Below, one piece after another: positions 2,933 to 16,995 of a DNA stretch of 31,155 nt; the stretch's first letter is position 1, and every line of letters begins with the position of its first letter. The DNA is taken from positions 1 to 31,155 of IMG/VR virus record IMGVR_UViG_3300017742_000061; one strand, written 5' to 3'. Made by a program: the position numbers and the translations under genes. Origin of the DNA: a virus. Below the pieces are notes generated by a model. The model was not told where the DNA came from, ran no database searches, and worked only from the letters and a program-made list of their open reading frames with translations.

Positions 2933-4531
2933 TTAAAATGTTCCGCCGTCTATAGCTGTGACTGTAACCGAACCACTTGATACTGTGAAGTTATCCGCAT
3001 GGAAACTTGCAATACCTTTTGCAGTAGTAGTTGCGTCATCGATAGCTACATCTCCTGAACTTACAGTGAAGTAAGTGCCTGAGAAACTTGCGATACCTTT
3101 GTTGGATGCTGTTGCATCTTCCGCTGAAAGAGTAATAGCACCTGCACCATTAGTGATGTCAAGTCCTTCTCCTGCAGTTAAAGTAGCAGCGTCAAATACT
3201 CCTGATGAAGTATCTCCAATTAATAACTGACCATCTGTAGGAGCTGAACCTGCATAAGAGTCAATACTTCCACTCATACTTGCGTTAGCAAGAGTTAAGT
3301 TTCCGAATTTACCTGCCATAGCAGTTCCAGAGAATACTGATGAACTATCTGTTGCACTTGTAAGAGCAACGAAAGAACCGTCTGTATCGTCCATACCAAA
3401 GAAACCAATTTTAGCACCACCTGAGTTGTACTTAAATTTAATACCTCTGTCAAGATTGTCATCTGAAGAATCATCACCTAGTTCAAATACAGGGTCAGCA
3501 ATATTTACTGTTGTTGAGTTTACTGTAGTTGTAGTACCGTTAACTGTCAAGTTACCTGTGACTGTTAAGTTACCAGATGTTGTTAGAGTTGCAGTTGTAA
3601 TATCGTCTGATATTAAGTTTCCTGAAACTGTTAAGTTATTTGCAATTGTGACATCGTTAGGAAGACCAACTGTTATAGTTTGTCCACTTGCTGAAGTCTC
3701 AACTTCGTTTGCTGTACCTGTGACTGTTAATGATTGAGTGTCTAAATCAACTGTACCTGTTCCTGAAGAACCTGCAATGTTTAAATCGTCATCTCTATCT
3801 AAACTATCTACATAGTCTTTAACAGCAGCTGAAGTAGGTATAGTAGTGTCGTTATCGTTTGAACTAATACCTTCTGATTGTGTTACCCACAAAGCATCTG
3901 CTAATTTGTCTAAAGTCACTGCATCATCAGCAATCATTGCTGTTTCAACTGCTGAGTTAGCAATTGTTAAAGCACCGTTTGCAGCTAATGTTGCATCTCC
4001 TGATACGCTAACATTGTCAAATGAATCTGAACCGTCATGCACAAGAATTTGTGCTGAAGTAGGTGAAGAAATATCTGAGTCTGAAGCACCAGCTAAAGTT
4101 GAAGTCGTTGATACAAATGAAAGTGCTCCACTTCCGTCTGTTGCAATAACCTGGTTAGCAGAACCGTCTGCCGCAGGAAGAGTAAAGGTTGTTGATGCAC
4201 CTAATGTGTCAGCAGCTTTTAACGCAACAAAGTTTGTTCCGTTATCACTGTCTTCCATTAGTGAAAGACTAGCACCTGCCGTTGAACCATTACCAACTTT
4301 AAAGTTGGATGGTGTAGCAGAAGAACCAGAAAGAATATCAGTATAATACTTACCACCAATCGCTTGGATTAGGGGTGTAGAGTTATCTGAATCTACTGAC
4401 TCAATGTATAGTTTCGCACCAGCACCTGAATTCGACCTGTCCTGTACATACGCTAATTCACCTTCCGATAAGTCTGAGACTGCTGGAGCTGAAACACCTG
4501 TACTTCTTTTAATCTGAATTACTGTTGCCAT
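2933..4531 (-). CDS. Long modular tail-fibre-like protein (532 aa)
   Basis: This is the longest of the left-hand fibre genes. It starts MATVIQIKRSTGVSAPAVSD and continues with LSEGELAYVQD, the conserved attachment-type N-terminus. Later segments include LPAADGSANQVIATDGSGALSF, a long Ser/Thr/Asp-rich strand region, NLTVTGNLTVNGTTTTVNST with ADPVFELGDDS (also in the gene at 728-1561), and paired repeats of the form KGIASFxxxxFTVSSGxV near the C-terminus. It ends IDGGTF, like two neighbours. RBS AGGAAA precedes the ATG at 4531. The build suggests a beta-structured trimeric fibre. Trimerisation and receptor binding are inferred, not visible. Confidence 0.78.
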   Translation of the reverse strand: MATVIQIKRSTGVSAPAVSDLSEGELAYVQDRSNSGAGAKLYIESVDSDNSTPLIQAIGGKYYTDILSGSSATPSNFKVGNGSTAGASLSLMEDSDNGTNFVALKAADTLGASTTFTLPAADGSANQVIATDGSGALSFVSTTSTLAGASDSDISSPTSAQILVHDGSDSFDNVSVSGDATLAANGALTIANSAVETAMIADDAVTLDKLADALWVTQSEGISSNDNDTTIPTSAAVKDYVDSLDRDDDLNIAGSSGTGTVDLDTQSLTVTGTANEVETSASGQTITVGLPNDVTIANNLTVSGNLISDDITTATLTTSGNLTVTGNLTVNGTTTTVNSTTVNIADPVFELGDDSSDDNLDRGIKFKYNSGGAKIGFFGMDDTDGSFVALTSATDSSSVFSGTAMAGKFGNLTLANASMSGSIDSYAGSAPTDGQLLIGDTSSGVFDAATLTAGEGLDITNGAGAITLSAEDATASNKGIASFSGTYFTVSSGDVAIDDATTTAKGIASFHADNFTVSSGSVTVTAIDGGTF

Positions 4532-4680: not shown

Positions 4681-4926
4681 TTAGAATGTTCCACCATCAA
4701 TTGTGGTGGTTGTTGTCCATTTATCTGATGCTTGGTCATATGAAAGAAGACCATCATCTGTTTCTGTTGCATTCACATCTGCAAGTTCGTTGATAGATTT
4801 AGCAGATAAATCTGTTCCACCACCACCTGAACCTATTGCAACTTGTTTGGCACGAATGTTTCCTGTACCACCCACTCTACCTGAGATACCTGCAACTCTT
4901 GAAACTGTTCCTTTAATGTTCGACAT
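4681..4926 (-). CDS. Small structural protein ending IDGGTF (81 aa)
   Basis: This 81-residue protein has a Gly-rich, basic N-terminal half (SRVAGISGRVGGTGNIRAKQ) and a C-terminal half with INELADVNATETDDGLLSYD followed by a W-containing strand and the tail TTIDGGTF. The LADV...DDGLLSYD...KW pattern is common in marine phage fibres. The same C-terminal tail is found in the gene at 2933-4531. GGAG lies seven bases above the ATG at 4926, and the upstream gene ends only two bases away. It may be a linker or adaptor subunit of the appendage; the function is not recognised. Confidence 0.7.
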   Translation of the reverse strand: MSNIKGTVSRVAGISGRVGGTGNIRAKQVAIGSGGGGTDLSAKSINELADVNATETDDGLLSYDQASDKWTTTTTIDGGTF

Positions 4927-4928
4927 AA

Positions 4929-5264
4929 TTAACTCCGACTTACACCTGGTGTCACTACTGCCTGTCCTTCGACCACTCTAGTAGTTATCCCACCAGGACT
5001 TGTAATATTTAAATCGTAAACATATCGACCTGCTTCTAAGGAATTGGTTTGAGTATCATTTAAACTCAATGTGACTTGACCATTCGATGCTGATATCGAA
5101 GTTGTAAATGCTACTGAAGCACTAGAAGAACTGTATGTTTTTCTCATCTGTGCTAATGCAGTATAGTTAGTCAAATCAAGGACATCTCCCGCTGCATCAG
5201 TCACATCTACTGTAATTGTGAAGTCGGTTCCTTGGTCAATATATAAATTTGCGATAATAGCCAT
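4929..5264 (-). CDS. Ig-like/BppU-type small appendage protein (111 aa)
   Basis: The sequence starts MAIIANLYIDQGTDFTITVD and alternates strands through LTNYTALAQMRK, VTLSLNDTQT and AGRYVYDLNI to a VVEGQAVVTPGVS end. This is the pattern of a single compact beta-sandwich similar to the N-terminal domain of baseplate upper proteins and to short proteins beside fibres in T4-like cyanophages. It probably links or decorates the fibre base. A perfect late promoter ends only five bases above the ATG, and no Shine-Dalgarno is visible, so its own transcript may be leaderless. Family assignment rests on pattern recognition only. Confidence 0.7.
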   Translation of the reverse strand: MAIIANLYIDQGTDFTITVDVTDAAGDVLDLTNYTALAQMRKTYSSSSASVAFTTSISASNGQVTLSLNDTQTNSLEAGRYVYDLNITSPGGITTRVVEGQAVVTPGVSRS

Positions 5265-5289: not shown

Positions 5290-6000
5290 TTATGAATTAG
5301 GTTCTGTTAATTGTGCTGTGGGTTGAGTCTGATGAACCTTTGATGCAGTTCCAGAATTATTTATATACATTTCACTTGCTTTTCTTAATGTTCCGTTATC
5401 ATTAATCCAAACTTGTTTAACTTTTGCCACAGGACCGATTTGTCTGGTACCTGGAACAGGAACGGTATATGTAAAAGGTGTTCTATTCTGATATGTGAAA
5501 GGTGACCTATGACTGTATGTAGAAGGTTGCCTCGCATTAGCAATGTAAGGTTGTCTAGCACTTGCAGGATTTCTATATGTAAAAGGTGACCTATTCTGAT
5601 ATGTAAAGGGTGTTTGACCTTGTGTCTCATATGTACTAGGTTGTCTATTCTGATAAGTGAAAGGTGTTCTACCAGTTGCGTTATATGTAAAGGGAACTCT
5701 ATGTTGATATGTGAACGGATTCCGACCTGTAGCATTATTCTGATAAGTAAATGGTGACCTTGCATTGTATGTGAATGGTGTTTGAGCATTTGCAATATAG
5801 GGAACACGATAACTTACAGGATTTCTGTAGGTAAAAGGTTGCCTTGCATTCGCAATATAAGGTACACGATATGTAAATGGATTTCTATATGTAAATGGAT
5901 TTCTTCCATTAGCAATATATGGTTGTCTTGCATTTGCAGGATAACTTGCGTTAGCAATATAAGGTTGTTGTACGATAACTGGTTGATTAGCTGATGGCAT
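5290..6000 (-). CDS. Proline-register repeat protein 2 (236 aa)
   Basis: Residues 11-183 are an array of units such as RQPYIANA, RNPFTY and RTPFTYQN. All 24 prolines from position 7 to 181 fall on odd residue numbers, with spacings of 6, 8, 10 or 12. The C-terminal part (about 191-225) has two copies of a short module, KQVWINDNGTLRKA and SEMYINNSGTASKV, a motif widespread in phage tail proteins; one copy also opens the neighbouring gene (IYVNTGGT). No enzyme motif, signal peptide or membrane segment is present. GGAG precedes the ATG at 6000. I infer a fibrous virion appendage with a beta-type alternating structure; the true function is unknown. Confidence 0.75.
   Translation of the reverse strand: MPSANQPVIVQQPYIANASYPANARQPYIANGRNPFTYRNPFTYRVPYIANARQPFTYRNPVSYRVPYIANAQTPFTYNARSPFTYQNNATGRNPFTYQHRVPFTYNATGRTPFTYQNRQPSTYETQGQTPFTYQNRSPFTYRNPASARQPYIANARQPSTYSHRSPFTYQNRTPFTYTVPVPGTRQIGPVAKVKQVWINDNGTLRKASEMYINNSGTASKVHQTQPTAQLTEPNS
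5452..5970 (-). repeat. P-F-T-Y / P-Y-I-A coding repeat array, copy 2
   Basis: Tandem imperfect coding units, mostly 18 or 24 bases long and always a multiple of six bases between proline codons, encode residues 11-183 of the 236-aa protein. Frequent units are x-P-F-T-Y and x-P-Y-I-A-N-A. Because the DNA is repetitive, other frames also stay open here. Confidence 0.9.
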
Positions 6001-6012
6001 TATCTATCTCCA

Positions 6013-7449
6013 TTATACTGCAAGTTTATAACTACCATAACTACTAACAAGATGTATATCATTTCCTAAGTGACCACCAGCAGAAGTACCATTTGATGCA
6101 ATGAAATGTGTATAGTAAGTTGTCTGACCAGATTTACTTGCTCTAATTGTAAATATCAATCCTGAAGCACTGACAATTGCGGTACTATTACCTGGATTTG
6201 AACTAGATACTGCTTTCCACATAAACTGCCTAAAATTAGCTGTTCCACTCATATTACCTGCTGATGAAGAACCTGAATACAAATTATAGAATGTACCTGC
6301 AGTATAGTTTGTGGAATATTGTCTATTGGCAGGATGTTCCGAATCTGTACCACCGTTAAAAATGGATTGTGATTGAACGGTATATTTAATAGAGAATGTC
6401 CATGTATCATCAACTACATTATTATTACCAAATTCAGTAGGAACAATTTTGATATAATATGGATTTTGACCAAATGTATTTGACATTGCTGCTGAGGTAC
6501 CTCCAGAATACCCATAGTAAATAAATCCTGGTGCAGATGTCTTAATAAATCCTACATAGAACTGTGCAAAAGCTTCACCAAAACTAAAATTAAAGTTCTG
6601 ACTTTGCACTGTCTTCCACTCATAAGCGAGATTCTGTAAACTAGAAGCGGCTAAAGGATTTGCAGGATAATAAGGATTACCTGGAGCAAATGCTGAATTA
6701 GGATTTTGTGCCATATGTGGTGATGCCGCACCCCACCATTCATTCGCAGACATACCGACATCTGTGTTTACTTTGGCAAGAAATGGTGCTTGACCCACAT
6801 CTGATGTTGATTCGATATTTGCAGTTGATGAACTTCCACCACCAAATACATCATAAATCACAGGAGTTTGTGATGAAACAGGTGTTCTTGCTTGATATGT
6901 AAAAGGAACTTGATATGTAAAAGGTGTCCTTGCATTGTAAGTAAATGGTTGTTGTGCATTACTTGGTGATTGAGCATTCGCAGGATATCTTGCCTGATAT
7001 GTAAATGGGTTTTGTGCTGATACAGGATTTCTGTACCCAGCAGGATATCTAGCATTGTAAGTAGACGGTTGCCTTGCATTCGCAATATATGGTTGTCTTG
7101 CATTTGCCGTATATGTAAATGGATATGGTTGCTGAGCATTCGCAATAATTGGTTGTCTTGCATTTGCTATATACGGATATGGTTGTTGAGCATTTGCAAT
7201 ATAAGGATTTCTAGCATTCGCAATATACGGATATGGTTGTTGAGCATTTGCAATATAAGGTTGCTGTGCGTTTGTTGGATTCCTATATGTGAATGGAGTC
7301 CTGTTTTGATATGTAAAAGGTGTTTGTGCGTTCGCTATATATGGTTGCTGAGCATTAGCAATATAAGGTTGCTGTGCGTTAGCGGGTTGCCTATCATTAA
7401 ACGGTTGTTGAAAAGTCCCACCAGTATTTACATAAATTTCTTCTGACAT
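6013..7449 (-). CDS. Proline-register repeat protein 1 (478 aa)
   Basis: The N-terminus EEIYVNTGGTFQQP is a short phage-tail module that recurs at the C-terminus of the neighbouring gene. Residues 14-200 are a repeat array of QQPYIANA, QTPFTYQN, QQPYPYIANA and similar units. All 28 prolines from position 16 to 196 lie on even residue numbers. After a GGGSSS hinge (about 203-208) comes a globular region of about 270 residues, rich in aromatic residues, Gly, Ser and Asn, with no motif I recognise. It could be a fibre with a repeat shaft and a C-terminal head, which would make the globular part the candidate host-contact domain. Its start is three bases from the upstream stop, within GTATAAATTATG, and no clear Shine-Dalgarno is seen. 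Confidence 0.78.
   Translation of the reverse strand: MSEEIYVNTGGTFQQPFNDRQPANAQQPYIANAQQPYIANAQTPFTYQNRTPFTYRNPTNAQQPYIANAQQPYPYIANARNPYIANAQQPYPYIANARQPIIANAQQPYPFTYTANARQPYIANARQPSTYNARYPAGYRNPVSAQNPFTYQARYPANAQSPSNAQQPFTYNARTPFTYQVPFTYQARTPVSSQTPVIYDVFGGGSSSTANIESTSDVGQAPFLAKVNTDVGMSANEWWGAASPHMAQNPNSAFAPGNPYYPANPLAASSLQNLAYEWKTVQSQNFNFSFGEAFAQFYVGFIKTSAPGFIYYGYSGGTSAAMSNTFGQNPYYIKIVPTEFGNNNVVDDTWTFSIKYTVQSQSIFNGGTDSEHPANRQYSTNYTAGTFYNLYSGSSSAGNMSGTANFRQFMWKAVSSSNPGNSTAIVSASGLIFTIRASKSGQTTYYTHFIASNGTSAGGHLGNDIHLVSSYGSYKLAV
6850..7410 (-). repeat. P-F-T-Y / P-Y-I-A coding repeat array, copy 1
   Basis: Imperfect tandem units encode residues 14-200 of the 478-aa protein. Spacings between proline codons are 6, 18, 24 or 30 bases. 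The units are the same types as in the array at 5452-5970, in a different order, so the two arrays are related by duplication or recombination. Confidence 0.9.
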
Positions 7450-7452
7450 AAT

Positions 7453-8553
7453 TTATACTACAAACCATATGTGACCTGATGATGTACTGCCTGTTCCTGA
7501 AGGTGCAGAACTTGTAATTGTCTTATCCATCACGACATTATCACTAACGATTTTTATTCCCTCTGATGTGTTAACACTGATATTTATATCACCATCTAAA
7601 GGGTCGGAAGTACCTGCAGCGAAAGTTTTAGATAAACCGTCTTGTGCATTAATGATTGCATTTACTCTTGTATCTGTAAAGTATTTCTGATTATTACCTT
7701 CTGATACTGAGTCTGTTGTGTTTGTTGGATTGACAGGTTCCCAATAATTATTGGTAGCATCCCATGCCAAAACTTGACCACCAGATGGTGCAGATGTATA
7801 ATTAATATCTGATAGAGTAGAAGCAGAATGTGTAGTTATACTTGTGACTGTTCCTGCACTACCTGAAACATTTCCTGTGACATTACCTGTTAGGTTTCCA
7901 GTGACATTTCCTGTGACATCACCAGTTAAATCACCAATAACATTTCCTGTTAGAGTTTTACCACTTGCAAGTGATATATTATCTTCTGCATAAGTCTTAC
8001 CTGCAAGTTGAATATTGAATCCACTTTGTAGAGTAGTTGTAGGAGATGAATTATCTCCTTGAAGTATAATACCATTTGTATTTGTATTATAGATAGTGTT
8101 CTGTAATGTTTCTGTAAAGAATGAAAGTATTGCAGAAGATGTTGCAGTTCCTTCGAAAGAACCTGTATAAGCAAAGATTTGTATTAAATCACCTGCACTT
8201 GCCGGAGACACTAACTGTATGCTATAATAGAAAGCACCTGCAAGACCGGCAACTTGCCAATCTTGTGCTTCTTCTAACAATGCACCATTCTTAAATACTT
8301 GAACTCTATTTCCTTTATATTTAAGAATATTTCCTTGTCCATCAGCACCTGTAAATGTCTGTTGATTTGCAGTTGCGGTATATCTATATCTTCCAAAATA
8401 GAATGCTTTATCTTCAACTGCGTTAACAGCATCGACTAGATTATCTCCTAATGCAGGTCTTAGTCCTTGAACTTCACCAACATCAACTGCAAGTTCATTA
8501 TACTTCTGCCTGAATTCTTCTATAGTGCTGTAATTATCTACTGTTTTAGCCAT
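7453..8553 (-). CDS. Tail-fibre-like protein with G-[DN]-[VL]-T repeats (366 aa)
   Basis: Residues 1-130 start MAKTVDNYSTIEEFRQKYNE and include VQVFKNGALLEEAQDWQV, an N-terminal module common to marine phage fibres. A four-residue repeat follows in the middle (about residues 200-230: TGNVIGDLTGDVTGNVTG and onwards), typical of fibre shafts that wind into a beta-helix. It then has SGGQVLAWDATNNYWEPV, the shared motif SEGNNQKYFTDTRVNA, and a short C-terminal stretch ending SGHIWFVV. AGGAAA lies upstream of the ATG at 8553, and the start overlaps the stop of the coiled-coil gene by eight bases. Fibre assignment is strong in type; receptor specificity is unknown. Confidence 0.8.
   Translation of the reverse strand: MAKTVDNYSTIEEFRQKYNELAVDVGEVQGLRPALGDNLVDAVNAVEDKAFYFGRYRYTATANQQTFTGADGQGNILKYKGNRVQVFKNGALLEEAQDWQVAGLAGAFYYSIQLVSPASAGDLIQIFAYTGSFEGTATSSAILSFFTETLQNTIYNTNTNGIILQGDNSSPTTTLQSGFNIQLAGKTYAEDNISLASGKTLTGNVIGDLTGDVTGNVTGNLTGNVTGNVSGSAGTVTSITTHSASTLSDINYTSAPSGGQVLAWDATNNYWEPVNPTNTTDSVSEGNNQKYFTDTRVNAIINAQDGLSKTFAAGTSDPLDGDINISVNTSEGIKIVSDNVVMDKTITSSAPSGTGSTSSGHIWFVV
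7861..7957 (-). repeat. 12-base coding repeat (G-[DN]-[VL]-T)
   Basis: About seven consecutive copies of a 12-base unit encode TGNV, TGDV, TGNL and variants within the 366-aa fibre protein. Repeats of this kind are usual in fibre shafts and can change copy number by slippage without breaking the frame. Confidence 0.85.
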
Positions 8554-8759: not shown

Positions 8760-11700
8760 TTATGTTGCCAATGCAATACATCTTAATGCCGCTACTAAAG
8801 GTATTTCACATGTATTGGTTCCTTGCCCTACTACTTTAATTGAGAATGATGAGAACTCTGAAAGTCCTTCTGCAGTATAATCATATTCTTTAAAGTTTCT
8901 TGCATCTGATTCAAGTGTTGAATCTGGAGAACCGTCTGTATTGAAATATTCCCAACCCAAGTCATCCCAAGGTTGTGAGTCATCGTTCTTCAGAACTTTA
9001 TACATGAACTTGATGTCTGTTGTTGCAGGTTTAAATAAATCTGCTGTGACTCTCAATGCAGTTGCAGGAGTCTTCAAGTTAACTTTTCTTGTACAATATA
9101 CCATTGCATTGTTATCACCCTCAGGTTCAGTAGATGCAACATAAACTGTTCCTTCTGGTAATGATTCTGTTGTTCCATCAACCTTTTTACTAGTTGCACT
9201 GTCAATATTATTCAGTCTATTCATAATACCAATAGCACCTAAAGTTCCTACATCGATTATAGGAGACAAGTTGGAATTGAATGATTGTAATTGCAACTGA
9301 CATGTAAATGATTTTGAACCACCATTGTAAGCAGATTCATTCACTGTGGATGAAATTACATGAGGACTGTCAAAATGCACATTGTCATTTAGTGTGACAA
9401 ATTCTGTGACTGTTTTCTTAACATGATTACTTCCATTTGCAAATCCTTCTGGTGATTGCATTGGAGACATGTAAACACTTGAATATATTCTTGTGTTTTT
9501 AAACTGTAAACTAGGTATCATTGTATGTAATGTATCAAAATAATAATTTCTTGTTGACATTACATTTGTACCACCACTCACTGTATTTGAAGGTGCAGTA
9601 TAATTATCTTTGAAGTCATATGCAGATACATCTGGTGTCACACAGAAGGAATCAATACCAATCTCTTTTATTGTATTAAATGTAGTATTAATTGCATCTA
9701 CTGGTATACCACCGATTGTTTCTCCTACTGTATCAACATTAACAGTTATTGTAGCACCATTTCCACCCTCTTGGAAACTGACATCTTCACCCACTATATA
9801 ACCTTGACCTGGATTTATAATTTTACAACTAGTTAAAGCACCACTTGAAGATGAAATCACTTCGACTACCATTCCTGTTCCGTTACCAGTTGTAGCAGAT
9901 TGTGTTCCAGTTGTTGTCGCACTGTTGTTTAAAGTTCCACTTGATATAGTTTCTGAACTAATAGTTAAAGCAGAACCTTGTTTATCTCCAGTTGCACCTG
10001 AAATTACTACACTTGATGCAGTTGTATACATTCCATGAGAATAGTTATATACTTTAACAAAGTTTTTACCTGATAATGCTTCAATAGGATTATTCTGCAA
10101 TGTATGAGAAGGTAATGCACTATTGTTAAATCTTAAATCAGGTGTTTTTGTTGTATCGAATGAACATATCTTCATGTTGAACTTCATATCATCTGTTTGT
10201 TCTGCAGTCCATGTAGATGCATTTTGTGATAAGAATAATGAACCTGCATAAGGTTGTCCTGATATTGTTTCACCAGAAACGATATCTGGTTCACCCATTC
10301 TTGAAATAAACACTTCGTAATCATTTGAATTAGATAGAACAACGAAACACATTTCTGCACCCTCTTCTATATAAACTGGTGATTCGAATGTAAATGTTGT
10401 TGCAACTGAACCGTCTACAGAAGTGGTAACATCTGATGGATTCTTAGTTACCACTGAGAATGGTAATATTACTTGTCCTGGGTATCCGTTTACCATGTTT
10501 CTGATTTCTACTGATACAGGTAAGTTTTCTGACTTAGATGCAAAGAAAATATCAATTGATGATAAGAACATTCCACCTTGTGGTTCACACATAAATGATT
10601 GTGCTAATGGGTCTTTCCAACCACCTCTTCCACCACCATCTAATCTGGTTATGAATCTTCTATCTGCAATATCCAATCTTTGTGTTGGGAATCTCTCTAA
10701 CTGTGGAGGACTAATTGGTGCCGGCACAGGCAAGACTGGTTCTGGTATTGGTGGAACTATTGGAGCACTTGGGGGTACAACTATAATTGGTTCTGCAACG
10801 GTTACAACAGGTTCAATTGTATCTACTGGTATTTCTGGTGCTTGTGAATCCCATTCAGTAGCATTTATGTTTTCACCTCTTCTTGTAAACTGTCTCTCAC
10901 CTCTTGTTCTTTCTGTAATAACTCGACCATTTCTTGTAGAAACAATTTCTGTTTGTGAAGATTGTAATAATCCTTGTGCTTGATATATAACACTAGCAGA
11001 AGATGCTGGGTTAGATAAATTAAAAGCAGATGATGTAATCATCATCTCTCTCATACCACTAGGGAATCTTTGTGACTCTGAATTAGGTAAATCAAAGTAT
11101 GCACGACATCTTCCGTTTCCGTCTGTTTTAAGACCTGAAGTAGATGTTGTACCACCATCTTGTGAATAGTTTGCATTAAGTGGTCTTACATATTTGTTTA
11201 CATCGATATTATCAAAATATATAAAGTGATTTGATTTTGGTTTTAAATTGGTTGCATCGATTTCAATAGTTCTGGCACGCATGAATGGTATCATTGATAC
11301 TGATACGATTCTATCGTTTCTTGTTTCTGCAAAGTCTTCAACAACACTTGTTGTCACACCTGTTCTTGTTTGTGTTTCAGGTGTTTCTGTAATTTCTCTT
11401 GTGACTTGTAGACCTGCAACCCATTCACCACCTTGTGCTGGGTCTCCTGACCAAGAACCATTTGATGTTGCTTGAACTTCAGAACTTACTGCAGATGGTT
11501 CACCTGCCCATGTGGTTTGCCAGTTGTTCCAAACTGTACCAAGTGCATTATCACTTCCTGCCATAACAGCATCAAAGTTTCCTTCTCTGTTTACTCTGAC
11601 TTCTGGTAATCTATCTGTATCTTGCCATATATCAGTACCAGGTGTTAATTTAAGTTGACCATCGAATGCAAAGACATGATATGGGTTAACATTCAATTGT

Positions 11701-14700
11701 CTTGATGCTTTATCTTGGTTTACATATGACAATTCTGAGAATGGTAATGTAATTAAATCACCAGTCTTAGTATAGTTTGCTGATGCAGAAGTATCTAAAT
11801 CTAAATCAAAGAATTGTGAATATGACTTAGGTCTCATTGCACCTAATTTAACATCTATAGATACATTATAGTCTGGATGTGATACATCACCAACTCTATG
11901 ACCTCTGAAGTTATCTACTAAGAAACCTGATTTGAATCTATCGAATCCGTCTGCATCTAAAATTTGTTTTGTTTGTGTGTCTTTTTCTAATAAAGATAAT
12001 GCAGTAATTCTTTCTAAGTTTGTGACCCTATTGTTAATCTTACCAATATCTTTCATGGTATATCGTCTATGGTCATATGACCTTACTCTGATATCTTTTA
12101 GATTATTTGTATAGGGTGGTATTCTCAACTCAAACATTTCGATTGCTTCATCGATTCCTTTAGGTTTGGTTGGTGTCAATGAAGGAATACCTGTTGATAC
12201 CATCATCTGACCTGTTTTGTGCATAAACACTTTGTCTATTCTTCCAACATAGAAGTCAATAGCACCAGTCATATTTGAACCATTAACAGGTGTATCTGGT
12301 GTTGATGCATTCATAACAGAAATATTACTTCTTGTTGTTGCAAAAGAACGACCAGTTTCATAACCGAATGGTGCATATCTGGCACCAGAAGTTGTGTTAG
12401 ATAAGTCTAATGGACTTACAACATTGTGTTGAGATGTATTTGCAAAAGTTGATTGTGCAAATATCTGTCCCACACTTGGTCTAAAGTCAACACAATCCGA
12501 TAGTTCGAATGTTCCGTCTGGTTCTAAACCACCTAAGTCGACTCTACTTGGAGAGTAAACAGGTATATCTTTATAGTCAATGTTAGTGTATGAATTTACA
12601 TCATAGAAATCACCAGCATTTGATGCTGTAAAGTAATCGAATACTATTAAAATAGGTCCTTGTGGTTTAGGTTCACCTGATTTAAGTGTAATTTTTGCTA
12701 AGTCATAGAAACCATCTCTCTGACCATCGTCAAAGAAGTATCTGTTTTTAATCTCTGGAGAACCTGCAACGATATTTGATAAAGTTGCGGTTGCAAGTGA
12801 AGAAGAACCAACAATTACTTCAGTATCGGTAAATCTTTCTGGTGTTGTATAATAGAAATAGTTTGTATTTCCATTACCATTTAGTGTGACCATTACTGCT
12901 CTTGCATCAGATGTTTGACCAACGATTGTTTCGTGTTCTGCAAATGTTCCTGATGTGACTGTAAATGTTGCACTTGGTGTCACAGGAGTACCATCAACTC
13001 CTTCATAGATACCTCTTATCTTAAATGCATCTGATACACCAAGAGATATGTCTTTGTTTGTGTATTGAGTTCCATAGAAAGTTGTGGAACTTGTAGAAAC
13101 TTTTAAACATCTATTTTTATTTAATGTTTTGTCTCTGTTAACAGGTGTGTTGATATCAACTGTATATGTGACCTTTAAAACTGCATTGTCATCATCAGCA
13201 TGAAAACCTGAAATTGTTAATGTGTTTGAACCTGGTGTCACTGTGTAGTCTTCGATATTAAGTAGACTACCTGCTGACTTAGCATTACCACCAGTATTAG
13301 TTCCTCTTTCGATAACTGAAATTGTTAAGTCATCTGTATTAGGAGTATTTGAATCAAAAGATTCACTTGAAGATACACTAAGTTGGAAAGAGTTTGATGC
13401 AACTGTCACAACCTTTTGTCTTCTTACTTTAACTTGGTCTGGTCTATGTGCTTCAACCCAATCTCTCGGCCAACTGAATATTGATGCAGTCTGGTCTTGG
13501 TTAACAATATTAACTCGTCTTCTTGTGACATTTCCTTGGAAGTTTCCTGTTGCACCAGGACTAACTAATGTTGCAGTCTGATTATCTGCAACTGAAGCAA
13601 TAACTAATTCTTGTCCTGAACCTGCAGGATTATAGATAACATCTCCTTCTTTTAATTCTCTAGTGAAGGCAGTTCCAAATCCTGTTAATGCTGTTGATGA
13701 ATTTGTTATTTGAACTGTACCTGTTAAAACAAAACTACCGTTTGTTATTACATTGGCAGTGAATATTTCTCTTCCATTAGCACCAGGAACTTGTGATATA
13801 GAACGAACTCTATCTATGTTATATTTTCTTACTGTTGTAATTCCACCCTTTGTTGTTGCTGTACTTCCTTCTGAGATTGCACTACTTGATACTTTAAAAT
13901 CTCCTACTACATCATGCAACATAATAGAGTTATCTGAACTACTTATCGATGCGAGTATTCCTGTTGCACCTGAAACTGAATCGGTAATTCTATCACCAAC
14001 TCCAAACTCAGAACCATTTAAACTACCAAATGTGACTTTAGTGAACATCTTAATGTCGAACATTGATAAGTCCCACTTAGAAGTTGCAGTATATACATTA
14101 CTTGAATCTGTTCCTTCATTTAGTGTGATATCTCTAACTCTTGCAAATCCAATTGATATTTCACTGTTTTCTGCACCATTACTTGCAACCACTGAAGGCC
14201 ACAATTTACATGTATTAAATGGGTCTTGTGAATCTGTTCCTGATTCATTACCAAATTCTGGTAATGAATGTGCTTTTGTGACTCTTAAAATATTACCTAA
14301 TCTTATAGGTGTATTTGTTGATGCTAAAGTAGAAGTAGTTCTTGCTTTATCTACAGGTATAATAGAACTTCCTATTTTCTCTACTTCATAACCCTTAACA
14401 TATGCTTTACCAGGAGATATCTGCATAACAAATTTATCTTCTTTACCACCATTTTGTGCAGTATAGAAACCTCTGTTTGTAGTATCATCTAAATGTTCTC
14501 TCATTGATTGAGTGAACTGTCTTACAACGAAATCACCAGATGCATCGAATGTTCTTCGTGCCATTGTGTTTTCAATTTCATTGTACATAGGTCTATTGAC
14601 ATGTAGTTCAATAATACCTTGATTAACTCTTGTTAACTCAATGAAGTTTGTATCGTCTGGAGTTACCAGTGATTGTTTCTTTAATACTAAATCTATTTTA

Positions 14701-15473
14701 AATCTATCTGCACCAGAAGCGTTTTCGTTTGATGTTCCTGTTGCATTGTCAAGTAATGCACCGTCTTCTGCAGAACCTACAAAACTTTCTGTAATAGAAA
14801 GACCTACTTTATAACTTGGTCTACCTGAATACTTTTCAAGTATGAGTTCTTGTTTGTCAACTTTAAGGAAATATCCTCTACTGAAGACAACACCTTCTGA
14901 AATGTTTGCTATCGAAGCACGACCATTTGGTGTTTGGTCTGATACTTCAACTTGAAAGTCATTGTTGTTTGAACTGACATCAGAAGTATTACCTGCAGAG
15001 TCTAAAGTGACAAGTTGCAGTTCTTCATTTGCTGTAAAGGCAAAATCGTTTGATGTATTTGTTCCTTGTTGTAGATAGTAAACAAAAAGTGTTGCTTTGT
15101 CATCTGTTGTTTCAGCAGATGAGGTAATAATTTTTGCAACAACACCTGAAGTTTTACCTTGTACATGTAAACCATGTGATGCAGTTCTATATGTTTCGAT
15201 ATTTGCATCACCATTTGCATTTGGATTAGCAGACTTTATTTTAACATAATATAAGTCCATGTCAATATCACACTGAGAACCAGATACTATTGACCCCTCT
15301 TTAAAGAAGTGGTCACCAAATCTCTCTATCTGATTCTGTAAGATAGATTGAGACTGAGTTAATTCTCTTGCTTGTAATGGTCTTCCAGCACGATAAAGAA
15401 CTTTTTGAAATTTATTATCTTCTGAATAGTCATCGTAATAGGGTGATATATTTAAATCAGTTTTCTCTGCCAT
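8760..15473 (-). CDS. Giant DUF4815-type virion structural protein (2237 aa)
   Basis: The N-terminus (YYDDYSEDNKFQKVLYRAGR, then LQARELTQSQSILQNQIERF and GDHFFKEGSIV) is the hallmark of the DUF4815 family found in baseplate-peripheral proteins of T4-like marine phages. The first about 1500 residues are beta-rich with several small glycine-rich repeats. Residues about 1550-1595 form a Pro/Val-rich linker (VVPPSAPIVPPIPEPVLPVP). It is followed by a new domain starting GGWKDPLAQSFMCEPQGGMF and continuing LSSIDIFFASK, a segment I associate with other baseplate wedge or fibre proteins. It lies between gp8 and the fibres, the place held by gp9-gp12 in T4, so it may anchor the fibres. The position supports this; the exact T4 counterpart is not established. 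The start has AGGAC upstream. Confidence 0.8.
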   Translation of the reverse strand: MAEKTDLNISPYYDDYSEDNKFQKVLYRAGRPLQARELTQSQSILQNQIERFGDHFFKEGSIVSGSQCDIDMDLYYVKIKSANPNANGDANIETYRTASHGLHVQGKTSGVVAKIITSSAETTDDKATLFVYYLQQGTNTSNDFAFTANEELQLVTLDSAGNTSDVSSNNNDFQVEVSDQTPNGRASIANISEGVVFSRGYFLKVDKQELILEKYSGRPSYKVGLSITESFVGSAEDGALLDNATGTSNENASGADRFKIDLVLKKQSLVTPDDTNFIELTRVNQGIIELHVNRPMYNEIENTMARRTFDASGDFVVRQFTQSMREHLDDTTNRGFYTAQNGGKEDKFVMQISPGKAYVKGYEVEKIGSSIIPVDKARTTSTLASTNTPIRLGNILRVTKAHSLPEFGNESGTDSQDPFNTCKLWPSVVASNGAENSEISIGFARVRDITLNEGTDSSNVYTATSKWDLSMFDIKMFTKVTFGSLNGSEFGVGDRITDSVSGATGILASISSSDNSIMLHDVVGDFKVSSSAISEGSTATTKGGITTVRKYNIDRVRSISQVPGANGREIFTANVITNGSFVLTGTVQITNSSTALTGFGTAFTRELKEGDVIYNPAGSGQELVIASVADNQTATLVSPGATGNFQGNVTRRRVNIVNQDQTASIFSWPRDWVEAHRPDQVKVRRQKVVTVASNSFQLSVSSSESFDSNTPNTDDLTISVIERGTNTGGNAKSAGSLLNIEDYTVTPGSNTLTISGFHADDDNAVLKVTYTVDINTPVNRDKTLNKNRCLKVSTSSTTFYGTQYTNKDISLGVSDAFKIRGIYEGVDGTPVTPSATFTVTSGTFAEHETIVGQTSDARAVMVTLNGNGNTNYFYYTTPERFTDTEVIVGSSSLATATLSNIVAGSPEIKNRYFFDDGQRDGFYDLAKITLKSGEPKPQGPILIVFDYFTASNAGDFYDVNSYTNIDYKDIPVYSPSRVDLGGLEPDGTFELSDCVDFRPSVGQIFAQSTFANTSQHNVVSPLDLSNTTSGARYAPFGYETGRSFATTRSNISVMNASTPDTPVNGSNMTGAIDFYVGRIDKVFMHKTGQMMVSTGIPSLTPTKPKGIDEAIEMFELRIPPYTNNLKDIRVRSYDHRRYTMKDIGKINNRVTNLERITALSLLEKDTQTKQILDADGFDRFKSGFLVDNFRGHRVGDVSHPDYNVSIDVKLGAMRPKSYSQFFDLDLDTSASANYTKTGDLITLPFSELSYVNQDKASRQLNVNPYHVFAFDGQLKLTPGTDIWQDTDRLPEVRVNREGNFDAVMAGSDNALGTVWNNWQTTWAGEPSAVSSEVQATSNGSWSGDPAQGGEWVAGLQVTREITETPETQTRTGVTTSVVEDFAETRNDRIVSVSMIPFMRARTIEIDATNLKPKSNHFIYFDNIDVNKYVRPLNANYSQDGGTTSTSGLKTDGNGRCRAYFDLPNSESQRFPSGMREMMITSSAFNLSNPASSASVIYQAQGLLQSSQTEIVSTRNGRVITERTRGERQFTRRGENINATEWDSQAPEIPVDTIEPVVTVAEPIIVVPPSAPIVPPIPEPVLPVPAPISPPQLERFPTQRLDIADRRFITRLDGGGRGGWKDPLAQSFMCEPQGGMFLSSIDIFFASKSENLPVSVEIRNMVNGYPGQVILPFSVVTKNPSDVTTSVDGSVATTFTFESPVYIEEGAEMCFVVLSNSNDYEVFISRMGEPDIVSGETISGQPYAGSLFLSQNASTWTAEQTDDMKFNMKICSFDTTKTPDLRFNNSALPSHTLQNNPIEALSGKNFVKVYNYSHGMYTTASSVVISGATGDKQGSALTISSETISSGTLNNSATTTGTQSATTGNGTGMVVEVISSSSGALTSCKIINPGQGYIVGEDVSFQEGGNGATITVNVDTVGETIGGIPVDAINTTFNTIKEIGIDSFCVTPDVSAYDFKDNYTAPSNTVSGGTNVMSTRNYYFDTLHTMIPSLQFKNTRIYSSVYMSPMQSPEGFANGSNHVKKTVTEFVTLNDNVHFDSPHVISSTVNESAYNGGSKSFTCQLQLQSFNSNLSPIIDVGTLGAIGIMNRLNNIDSATSKKVDGTTESLPEGTVYVASTEPEGDNNAMVYCTRKVNLKTPATALRVTADLFKPATTDIKFMYKVLKNDDSQPWDDLGWEYFNTDGSPDSTLESDARNFKEYDYTAEGLSEFSSFSIKVVGQGTNTCEIPLVAALRCIALAT

Positions 15474-15519: not shown

Positions 15520-16995
15520 TTACATTTCGATAATCAGTTTGATATCTTCAATTTGGTCGTTCGCTCTTGTCACGGCACCTCTATTTTCAATATACATCAT
15601 TCTACCAGTATGTTTTGCAACTTCTGGATTTGTTGGTGATTGAGTTAGTGTTCCGATTGAACCTACTCCTGTTTTGTATACTGTTTGACCATTTGAAAAA
15701 GCAACATAACCACCTTCACTGTTTGCCATAGGTAGATATGAGACTACATTTCCGTCCATTGATATGACTCTAGCAACTGCAACACCTGCTCCGTCTGAAG
15801 AGGCATTATAGACAACATCGTCAACTGATAAACTACCAATTGAAGATAGAGTCATTTCGAAGTATGCTTTCATAGTATCGTCTGTTGCTCTATTTGTTGT
15901 ACCAAAGGCAAATGGGTCTTGACATAAACCAATTCTTCTGAAGTCGTTGTCTGTTGGGAAGTCGCCTGTACCTTCTGCAAATTCTAATCTTGAATTTAGA
16001 ATGATATAGTTTCCACCTAACTCTTCTACAGGGTCAGCACCATGTCCAAACTGAGGTGAGATTACTGGAGTTGCAACACCACCTTGAGCATTACCACCAG
16101 AATTAATACCTGATATATTTGCAACATCAATTGATGCTCTCAGATATCCTGTTCCTCTTGCAGTCACATCGATTTCTCTTAGACCACCTGAAACTACTTT
16201 AACAGTACATGTTCCGCCTGAACCGTCTCCGTCGATTGCAACACCTGTATATGTTCCATTTGTATAGTTGGTTCCTGGATTGTCTACTTTAATATGTAAG
16301 ACTGAACCATCGACAGCATTTGATTCTACTTGCCATTGTTGTGAAGTGTCGTTGTCTGCTGAGGAGTTCAGACCACCATTTGCACCAGTTCCATAAACTT
16401 TATTTTGAGCACCTATTGTCTTAACAGGTATAAAGTCGTTAGTCACAAATTTGATTGTATCAGATGCAGAAATAGTGTACATGTATTTCCAAAGATAAGG
16501 CATTCCGTCTGTTCCACCCTCATCTGCTGGTGTTCCTTCAAATAGAGTTGATACATCTGTTCCTGTAGGTTTGTTCATTGAGTTTACAACTGCACCTGAA
16601 CTATCTCTTCCAGTTCTGATACATTTATATACATTATACTCATCAGTCATTACATAGAATCTTCCCTCATACAAATTATTTTTATTTGTTGCAGGTGTAG
16701 TATTTGTTGCACTGTAGTCATGTGAATACTCATCGTATTTTGTACTTGCTGTCCAATTATATCTTTGTATACCGTGTGAAACATCTCCTGTTTTGACCTT
16801 TTTAAGTGCCAACATGTCTTCCCATGCTTGAATCTCTTCACCAGGTCCGTTTGCAGGTGCAGGTGGGTTATTATCATCAGTCCATGAATATGAACGACCT
16901 ATGAAAACATATGTTGATGATGCTGATTCACCAAAGTCTTCCTTAAATTGTCTCGCATTATGAACACGAAACTTTTCTGTTATTATTGCTGCCAT
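15520..16995 (-). CDS. 8: Baseplate wedge subunit gp8
   Basis: The assignment rests on both ends of the protein. Near the N-terminus ITEKFRVHNARQFKEDFGES followed by VFIGRSYSW matches the T4 gp8 pattern (KFRT..., then FGRSEPW). The C-terminus HTGRMMYIENRGAVTRANDQ, then IEDIKLII, matches T4 gp8 HSGEMIYMENRPPI...DQTEEINILF. At 491 aa it is longer than T4 gp8 (334 aa); the extra length lies in the middle, around the Gly/Ser/Thr-rich stretch at residues about 210-320. gp8 sits in the baseplate wedge with gp7 and gp10. The start has GAGGAGA upstream and a CATAAATA late-type promoter about 40 bases above. It follows the gp7-like gene as in T4. Confidence 0.9.
   Translation of the reverse strand: MAAIITEKFRVHNARQFKEDFGESASSTYVFIGRSYSWTDDNNPPAPANGPGEEIQAWEDMLALKKVKTGDVSHGIQRYNWTASTKYDEYSHDYSATNTTPATNKNNLYEGRFYVMTDEYNVYKCIRTGRDSSGAVVNSMNKPTGTDVSTLFEGTPADEGGTDGMPYLWKYMYTISASDTIKFVTNDFIPVKTIGAQNKVYGTGANGGLNSSADNDTSQQWQVESNAVDGSVLHIKVDNPGTNYTNGTYTGVAIDGDGSGGTCTVKVVSGGLREIDVTARGTGYLRASIDVANISGINSGGNAQGGVATPVISPQFGHGADPVEELGGNYIILNSRLEFAEGTGDFPTDNDFRRIGLCQDPFAFGTTNRATDDTMKAYFEMTLSSIGSLSVDDVVYNASSDGAGVAVARVISMDGNVVSYLPMANSEGGYVAFSNGQTVYKTGVGSIGTLTQSPTNPEVAKHTGRMMYIENRGAVTRANDQIEDIKLIIEM

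Follow-up and report, generated by a model that had tools for sequence, protein, structure and literature searches.

Mirror-Complementary Proline Arrays in Two Adjacent Phage Genes Suggest an Antiparallel Two-Chain Tail-Fibre Shaft

Introduction

The long tail fibres of phage T4 contain gp34, which forms a parallel homotrimer, and gp37, which likewise trimerises (PMC3004832). The T4 gp5 triple-stranded beta-helix is built from three identical chains with a VxGxxxxx repeat (PMC4576200). In the tandem beta-zipper, staphylococcal FnBP pairs with folded fibronectin type I modules arranged in a row (PMC7480013). Here we describe two adjacent genes of the IMG/VR virus record IMGVR_UViG_3300017742_000061 (positions 1 to 31,155; this whole stretch of 31,155 nucleotides is called the window), both of which encode long arrays of proline repeats. 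The prolines of one array mirror those of the other, and the two genes very probably encode mirror-complementary strands of one antiparallel beta-ribbon, the shaft of a tail fibre, a reading that is based on sequence.

Two Adjacent Genes With Parity-Locked Arrays

The gene pair and its parts are as follows.

6013-7449, minus strand: gene 1 (class A), an open reading frame (ORF) of 478 amino acids (aa)
7405..7449, minus strand: gene 1 residues 1-15, MSEEIYVNTGGTFQQ, conserved start, with M1, N8, Q14 and Q15 invariant in 18
6844..7404, minus strand: gene 1 residues 16-202, parity-locked array, mirror-paired with gene 2; residue 202 stands opposite gene 2 Met1
6016..6843, minus strand: gene 1 residues 203-478, C-terminal domain, modelled as mostly beta and located at the distal end of the paired span; putative receptor-binding tip
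5290-6000, minus strand: gene 2 (class B), ORF of 236 aa
5452..5982, minus strand: gene 2 residues 7-183, parity-locked array, mirror complement of the gene 1 array
5293..5451, minus strand: gene 2 residues 184-236, C-terminal module with conserved TRxIGPxAKVKxVYVNDxGTLRK...IHQ, four predicted strands and the register anchor Arg186; putative base cap

Twelve bases separate the gene 1 stop from the gene 2 start. A preliminary description of this DNA had reported that the prolines of each array keep to positions of one parity, with even spacings, and that chance would not produce this. Both statements were confirmed. Between residues 16 and 196 of gene 1, 28/28 prolines are even, with gaps of 2, 6, 8 or 10; between residues 7 and 181 of gene 2, 24/24 are odd, with gaps of 6, 8, 10 or 12, and P183 is also odd. 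Full parity was obtained in 0 of 20000 residue shuffles of each array. Other residues follow the same alternation. All Tyr (21 in gene 1, 21 in gene 2), Phe (8 and 12) and Ala (30 and 16) of the arrays have the parity opposite to proline, and the proline parity holds all Arg (12 in the gene 1 array, 18 in the gene 2 array) and 15/16 Ile. Overall, Pro, Arg and nearly all Ile occupy one face and Tyr, Phe, Ala and Val the other, where Tyr and Phe make up about one third of the residues. In both proteins parity is lost outside the arrays.

Relatives were collected from IMG/VR as tblastn-confirmed stretches, 192 with gene 1 and 233 with gene 2, of which 80 of each were kept, giving 79 and 78 loci; a further 71 stretches were found with a degenerate two-unit PYIANA pattern. 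These relatives are mostly metagenome assemblies of repeats, and the two species-genome records that contain relatives are both contigs of metagenome-assembled genomes (MAGs). The proteins fall into four classes, which occur as two cassettes: A precedes B in one, and C precedes D in the other. Class C begins with KVKTPxGW units, and class D ends in TPVxRWD. A contig that shares an identical gene 1 with the window carries a C-D pair ~9 kb further on (L002 and L152 on one contig), so the window phage probably has two cassettes as well.

In 102 non-redundant array proteins from 233 sequences, a few of them admitted by a rule that used parity, 3559 prolines of the array cores are in phase and 55 are off, while 2888/2911 Tyr and 1030/1044 Phe lie on the face opposite to proline. 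When arrays were chosen by at least three motif words regardless of parity, 188/189 (not de-duplicated) had a parity of at least 0.88; as a control, 189 motif-poor proline runs of the same DNA centre on 0.5-0.6. Of 24734 array residues, a proline-blind segmentation left 120 out of phase. Homologues with many odd prolines did not occur in this array search of marine relatives with its parity test, and the preliminary description, which had named them as evidence against its reading, stood on this point.

Mirror Register of the Prolines

Since array lengths match within a cassette, pairing of the two genes was tested. In the window, gene 1 residue i stands opposite gene 2 residue 203-i, and this register gives 24 proline-on-proline pairs that run 22/181, 28/175, 36/167 and so on to 196/7. 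The best of 20000 gap-order shuffles of gene 2 reached 20 proline matches, against the 24 observed. The unpaired prolines are P183 of gene 2 and P16, P74, P92 and P110 of gene 1, the last three each being the second P of a PYP and facing Q or R. If the mirror register were extended, gene 1 residues 1-15 would face gene 2 residues 188-202.

The comparison was then made for 48 non-redundant cognate pairs (21 AB and 27 CD, sharing no more than 0.6 of their 6-mers) drawn from 74 distinct adjacent pairs. The mean proline match is 0.876 in the antiparallel sense, compared with 0.549 for non-cognate antiparallel partners (472 comparisons at similar proline counts), and the observed match was equalled by no more than 3 of 300 shuffles in 43/48 pairs. 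Ranked by prolines alone, the cognate gene 2 came first for 26/27 C genes. Antiparallel pairing also holds in two loci with the reverse gene order, L244 and L316, where gene 2 comes first.

Two other arrangements were tried and rejected. Antiparallel self-pairing of each array gives a match at background (0.56), and parallel pairing of the two genes (mean 0.588) is lower than antiparallel pairing in 48/48 pairs.

Complementarity of the Facing Residues

A symmetric residue-pair matrix, from which prolines were excluded, was used to rank all antiparallel and parallel registers with at least half overlap. Trained on CD pairs, the matrix placed the proline register first in 20/21 AB pairs, and trained on AB pairs it did so in 27/27 CD pairs. 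In the AB exception, L148, the best blind register lies eight residues off the proline register and matches the anchor seen in the remaining AB pairs. A matrix from these 48 pairs only was applied to a later set of 25 new non-redundant pairs, taken from 56 adjacent array pairs whose loci were fetched afterwards; their ORFs were selected for at least 9 prolines in phase and for an in-phase share of 0.85 or more, with no pairing criterion. In this set, which is not wholly distant from the training data (gene 2 of L327 is 92% identical to that of L157), the proline register ranked first in 22/25 pairs, including L244 and L316, and the antiparallel exceeded the parallel match in 22/25, with means of 0.81 and 0.56.

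Order matters as well as composition. When same-length units were permuted with the prolines kept aligned, the true order scored above the shuffle mean in 48/48 pairs and reached the 1% level in 13/21 AB and 26/27 CD pairs. Common facing units, in counts dominated by CD, are PYIANAQQ/PFTYQNRQ, PYPYIANSQT/PGTYARQGQT and PVSAQQ/PFTYRN. These can be written as a unit code in which PYIANAQQ faces PFTYQNR[QST], PVNGQQ, PVSAQQ or PANAQS faces PFTYRN or PFTYRV, and PYPYIANSQT faces PGTYARQGQT. Either unit of a complementary pair is found in either gene, and PFTYNARY/PYIANARQ, for example, occurs both ways round.

At the residue level, Tyr is most often opposite Ala, Phe opposite Gln and Ile opposite Arg; the leading facing pairs in the window are A-Y (21), F-Q (14), I-R (11) and Q-T (11). 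Aromatic residues seldom face each other, with 189 such pairs against 579 expected over the 48 cognate pairs and a count below expectation in 48/48. The cassettes thus combine a constant i+j register with complementary facing residues, as antiparallel two-chain pairing would at the sequence level.

Anchors, Ends and Array Lengths

As read from the cassettes, the register is fixed by conserved end anchors. In 45/47 CD pairs the first proline of the C array is opposite the proline of TPVxRWD, and the exceptions (L135 and L147) are length variants of contigs with matched lengths. In 23/27 AB pairs gene 1 residue 17 is opposite the Arg of TRxIGP; the exceptions are L009 and L087, with the gene 1 array one residue earlier, L146, with the array three residues later, and L148.

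Within the paired span, 1755 gene 1 prolines are in phase and 27 are off (1755/1782; 48 pairs). Past the paired span, in the C-terminal domain, 209 are in phase and 194 off (209/403). The in-phase array of gene 1 therefore ends about where gene 2 begins, and cross-chain antiparallel pairing explains the parity better than a homotrimer of each protein would. This ending, like the mirror register, the unit complementarity and the end anchors, is a property of the sequences themselves.

Array lengths correlate between partners, with r of 0.83 for 21 AB and 0.97 for 27 CD pairs. Length outliers differ by 66, 112 and 130 in AB and by 44 and 108 in CD; in L004, L066, L157, L032 and L049 the difference may arise because in-phase prolines of the tip domain were included in the count or because the array is interrupted. 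Where related cassettes were compared, in three cases, unit differences come as complementary pairs, in a list that was built from matched units and is blind to a change in one gene only. From L057 to L044, for example, PYPYIANSQT/PGTYARQGQT appears together with PYIANRQN/PSTYQNRQ. In pairwise DNA alignments of close relatives, large single gaps of 54, 60, 108 and 264 bases are multiples of six, a test that carries little weight because the repeats make many gaps ambiguous and the full tally has many lengths not divisible by six.

Proposed Structure and Alternative Explanations

In the proposed structure, the gene 1 and gene 2 arrays would be in physical contact, lying antiparallel side by side, residue against residue, as a two-stranded beta-ribbon that would span the full array length, about 180 residues in the window and up to about 540 in relatives. 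In antiparallel strands alternate residue pairs are hydrogen-bonded, and proline, which has no N-H, suits the non-hydrogen-bonded sites. Prolines would stand opposite prolines at such sites, with N toward the outer edge, and would there block the addition of further strands. Strict parity would arise because the residues of one parity form the non-hydrogen-bonded pairs with N outward, where proline fits. Cross-strand aromatic-glycine pairing is known, and Tyr opposite Gly or Ala would fit. The gene 1 start and the gene 2 end would make up a base module, with the variable C-terminal domain of gene 1 at the tip of a fibre with a putative receptor-binding role; gene location and layout point to these shaft, base and tip assignments. 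We also consider it probable, with somewhat less assurance than the ribbon itself, that the pair is a natural, sequence-programmed protein duplex. Units would then follow a complementary code that lets one strand be predicted from the other, arrays would lengthen as both genes gain complementary unit pairs, and each cassette, of which several contigs show two per phage, would be a self-contained kit for a specific fibre.

Several observations weigh against the ribbon. AlphaFold2 models of the single chains leave the arrays unfolded, with the predicted local distance difference test score (pLDDT) mostly about 26-45 there. Five AB pairs are weak by the proline shuffle test (L146, L157, L148, L035 and L042), and proline-only ranking puts the cognate gene 2 first for just 13/21 A genes, the other 8 being second or third. 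In the later set, the blind test fails in L285, L273 and L311, with the best blind register of L273 and L311 eight residues from the proline register, and the antiparallel match does not exceed the parallel one in L285, L273 and L327. Rare phase slips occur inside arrays. The in-phase run of gene 1 extends 5-52 residues past gene 2 Met1 in 9/48 pairs. Gene 1 prolines before the paired span are still in phase in 103/110 cases (7 off), and this is not a clean control, as the start of the span was set by the last proline of the uninterrupted gene 2 run and many earlier prolines may have partners. Some near-identical contigs differ in the length of one gene only (L135, L147, L073 and L017 versus L136, L126 and L013), which may reflect repeats collapsed in assembly or real mismatches.

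The preliminary description had read the arrays as an extended beta-type fibre; one form of that reading is a separate homotrimer of each protein. The two-residue alternation is in line with an extended beta chain, its natural reading, and phage fibres are usually homotrimers; the two genes, however, appear to encode mirror-complementary partners and not two similar fibres. A homotrimer predicts neither the mirror matching nor the matched lengths nor the ending of the gene 1 array at the gene 2 start, and the antiparallel self match is at background (0.56), although this does not probe a parallel homotrimer. We regard separate homotrimers as very improbable. An elastic, disordered tether of low complexity would account for the low pLDDT in the arrays, which an absent obligate partner would also produce; disorder requires neither parity nor mirrored partners, and the tether is more improbable still. 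Lowest of all in our estimate stands a by-product of repeat slippage or of inverted duplication of DNA, devoid of structural meaning. The arrays do gain and lose even-length units, and the large single gaps are multiples of six bases. Slippage, however, holds register within one gene and cannot mirror another. As for inverted duplication, a proline codon read as its reverse complement no longer encodes proline, and a search of 5290-7449 gave no inverted repeats of at least 14 bases.

Mirrored spacing would likewise result if the arrays had no mutual contact and each bound a third periodic partner in opposite directions. Against this, the inter-chain residue complementarity learned on one cassette type predicts the other, complementary units occur with either unit in either gene, and no third array gene is seen with the pairs (204/233 sequences have two array ORFs), which leaves a third partner very unlikely, if slightly less so than the three preceding explanations. 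A different case is that of a larger working unit in which the pairing is real, for example a six-stranded fibre in which three gene 1-gene 2 ribbons pack through their aromatic faces. The face rich in Tyr and Phe (about a third) would suit such packing, and other tail fibres have threefold symmetry, the T4 proximal half-fibre being a parallel gp34 homotrimer (PMC3004832); the sequence itself is silent on ribbon number. This would extend the antiparallel ribbon, not exclude it, and we hold it plausible, a shade short of an even chance.

Genomic Setting, Terminal Domains and Database Searches

The window is part of the genome of an uncultivated, T4-like marine phage. Pfam and PHROG scans of its proteins show, in order on the minus strand, baseplate genes, a 2237-aa protein and the tail-fibre region. 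The minus-strand baseplate set comprises PHROG baseplate wedge subunits, a tail-tube cap, a Gp5_OB hub protein and a gp8-like subunit; the plus strand carries head-closure, end-protector, tail-tube and baseplate-hub genes. Three neighbours place the array genes.

15520..16995, minus strand: T4 gp8-like baseplate wedge subunit, which marks the baseplate/tail-fibre module (Pfam/PHROG matches)
8760-15473, minus strand: 2237-aa protein, phrog_358, DUF4815
4929..5264, minus strand: LtfC-like protein (PHROG: L-shaped tail fiber protein assembly; Pfam LtfC below cut-off)

The 2237-aa protein occupies the slot of the gene annotated VrlC in Mosig and HTVC008M, and the LtfC-like neighbour places the array gene pair in the tail-fibre region. 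In keeping with a T4-like tail-fibre module, the array genes adjoin baseplate wedge and tail-fibre assembly genes, with PHROG wedge and hub genes further upstream. The major capsid protein of one related 146 kb contig has 67.5% identity to that of Methylophilales phage Melnitz, 64.9% to HTVC008M and 64.2% to Mosig. Elsewhere on the minus strand, a GG[TS]F C-terminal motif is common to three otherwise unlike proteins (4681-4926, 81 aa; 2933-4531, 532 aa; 393-653, 86 aa). Upstream of gene 1, a 366-aa protein (7453-8553, minus strand) contains a stretch of GNVxGDxTGNVTGN-type repeats and matches nothing in Pfam or PHROG.

Among the relatives, 204/233 sequences have two array ORFs, 19 have one and 10 have three or four. 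The extra ORFs in those 10 are a second cassette (L218 and L162) or one long upstream ORF; the long upstream array-like ORF of the window is the 2237-aa gene, a chance motif match, and the other long ORFs are presumed to be alike. Phase slips in L111:3649-5196 (from residue 360) sit just past the residue opposite the partner's Met1 (359), and L157:5851-6756 also has rare slips inside its array. Between genes C and D of one cassette lies a 95-aa ORF without a Pfam match (L117:5692-5979), which could be a chaperone or a tip subunit, and intergenic gaps of similar size (about 286-334 bases) occur in other CD cassettes. Gene 1 of the C-D cassette L285:4860-6602 is split into separate ORFs, by assembly error or a real frameshift. 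A weak hint at a host comes from L244, whose 121 kb contig was binned as a Sphingobacteriales MAG.

The gene 1 C-terminus varies among relatives, and some end in Hint-type, intein-like domains at the putative fibre tip. Hint is above the Pfam cut-off in L161:6363-8288 and in L092:4688-5983, which also has Vint; it is below cut-off in L173:1901-3163, and L225:77-1762 shows no more than a weak trace of PT-HINT. The gene 2 C-terminal module is modelled by AlphaFold2 with pLDDT block means of 54-69 over residues 191-230, and phrog_13729 matches it in 25/26 members at E up to 0.1.

The preliminary description had known no described structure for the repeat, and searches of the PDB, Pfam, PHROGs and the accessible part of the open-access literature agree, yielding no described relative. 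The gene 1 protein has no Pfam or PHROG match, and its model has no PDB match by Foldseek at E <=0.001 (best E 0.031); the PDB sequence search gave none up to E 1. When classes A and B were scanned, no PHROG family fitted the arrays beyond stray weak matches. No array relative was found in isolated phages by tblastn or distant blastn, in which low-complexity filtering could hide arrays; Pectobacterium phage ZF40 alone gave a weak match, to the gene 2 C-terminal module (E 0.07). Among proline runs of at least 7 in the 41 kb tail regions of Mosig, Melnitz-3, HTVC008M and ACG-2014b, none is parity-locked. In the open-access texts reached, no description of such arrays or such pairing was found.

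Implications

If true, the antiparallel ribbon would be a principle of phage fibre construction not met in the literature covered by our searches, namely two different antiparallel chains with a readable unit code, as opposed to three identical parallel chains. It would explain the two-residue proline register as edge control in a beta-ribbon. It would also be one of the rare protein complexes whose partner, register and direction are legible in the sequence and open to testing on held-out data. Questions raised are how two genes gain matching units at mirrored places, how orthogonal the fibres of co-infecting phages are, and whether the code could be a template for programmable protein duplexes.

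Comparison With Known Systems

Like the T4 long tail fibre shafts, the proposed structure would be a long thin shaft, encoded in a T4-like tail-fibre region, with a receptor-binding tip (putative here) at its end. In T4, gp34 chains form a parallel homotrimer and gp37 chains trimerise too (PMC3004832), whereas here two gene products appear antiparallel and complementary. The gp5 beta-helix shares with the arrays a repetitive extended beta structure in a phage tail, the beta structure being predicted here. It differs by its VxGxxxxx octad and its identical chains (PMC4576200), whereas the window arrays contain 1 and 4 Gly in 183 and 176 residues, repeats of 6, 8 and 10 residues led by Pro, and two different chains. 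Nor do the arrays have the Gly-X-Y triplets of collagen-like phage fibres, their periodicity being of two residues and not three. The view in the preliminary description that the repeat is unlike collagen or the usual phage shaft repeats holds for collagen and for the gp5-type shaft repeat.

The tandem beta-zipper resembles the proposed ribbon in that a long, linear protein made of repeats lines a repetitive partner with added beta strands. In that system folded modules in a row serve as the partner (PMC7480013), whereas both partners in the window are linear arrays without a predicted fold, come from one virus and follow a unit-by-unit code.

An antiparallel beta hairpin has the same predicted strand geometry. 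It is unlike the present case in that two chains are paired here, over spans of about 160-540 residues, with the self-match of either array at background. A fused single-gene form was not noticed, and no search was aimed at one. As a pair, the genes look like one giant hairpin that has been divided in two at the tip.

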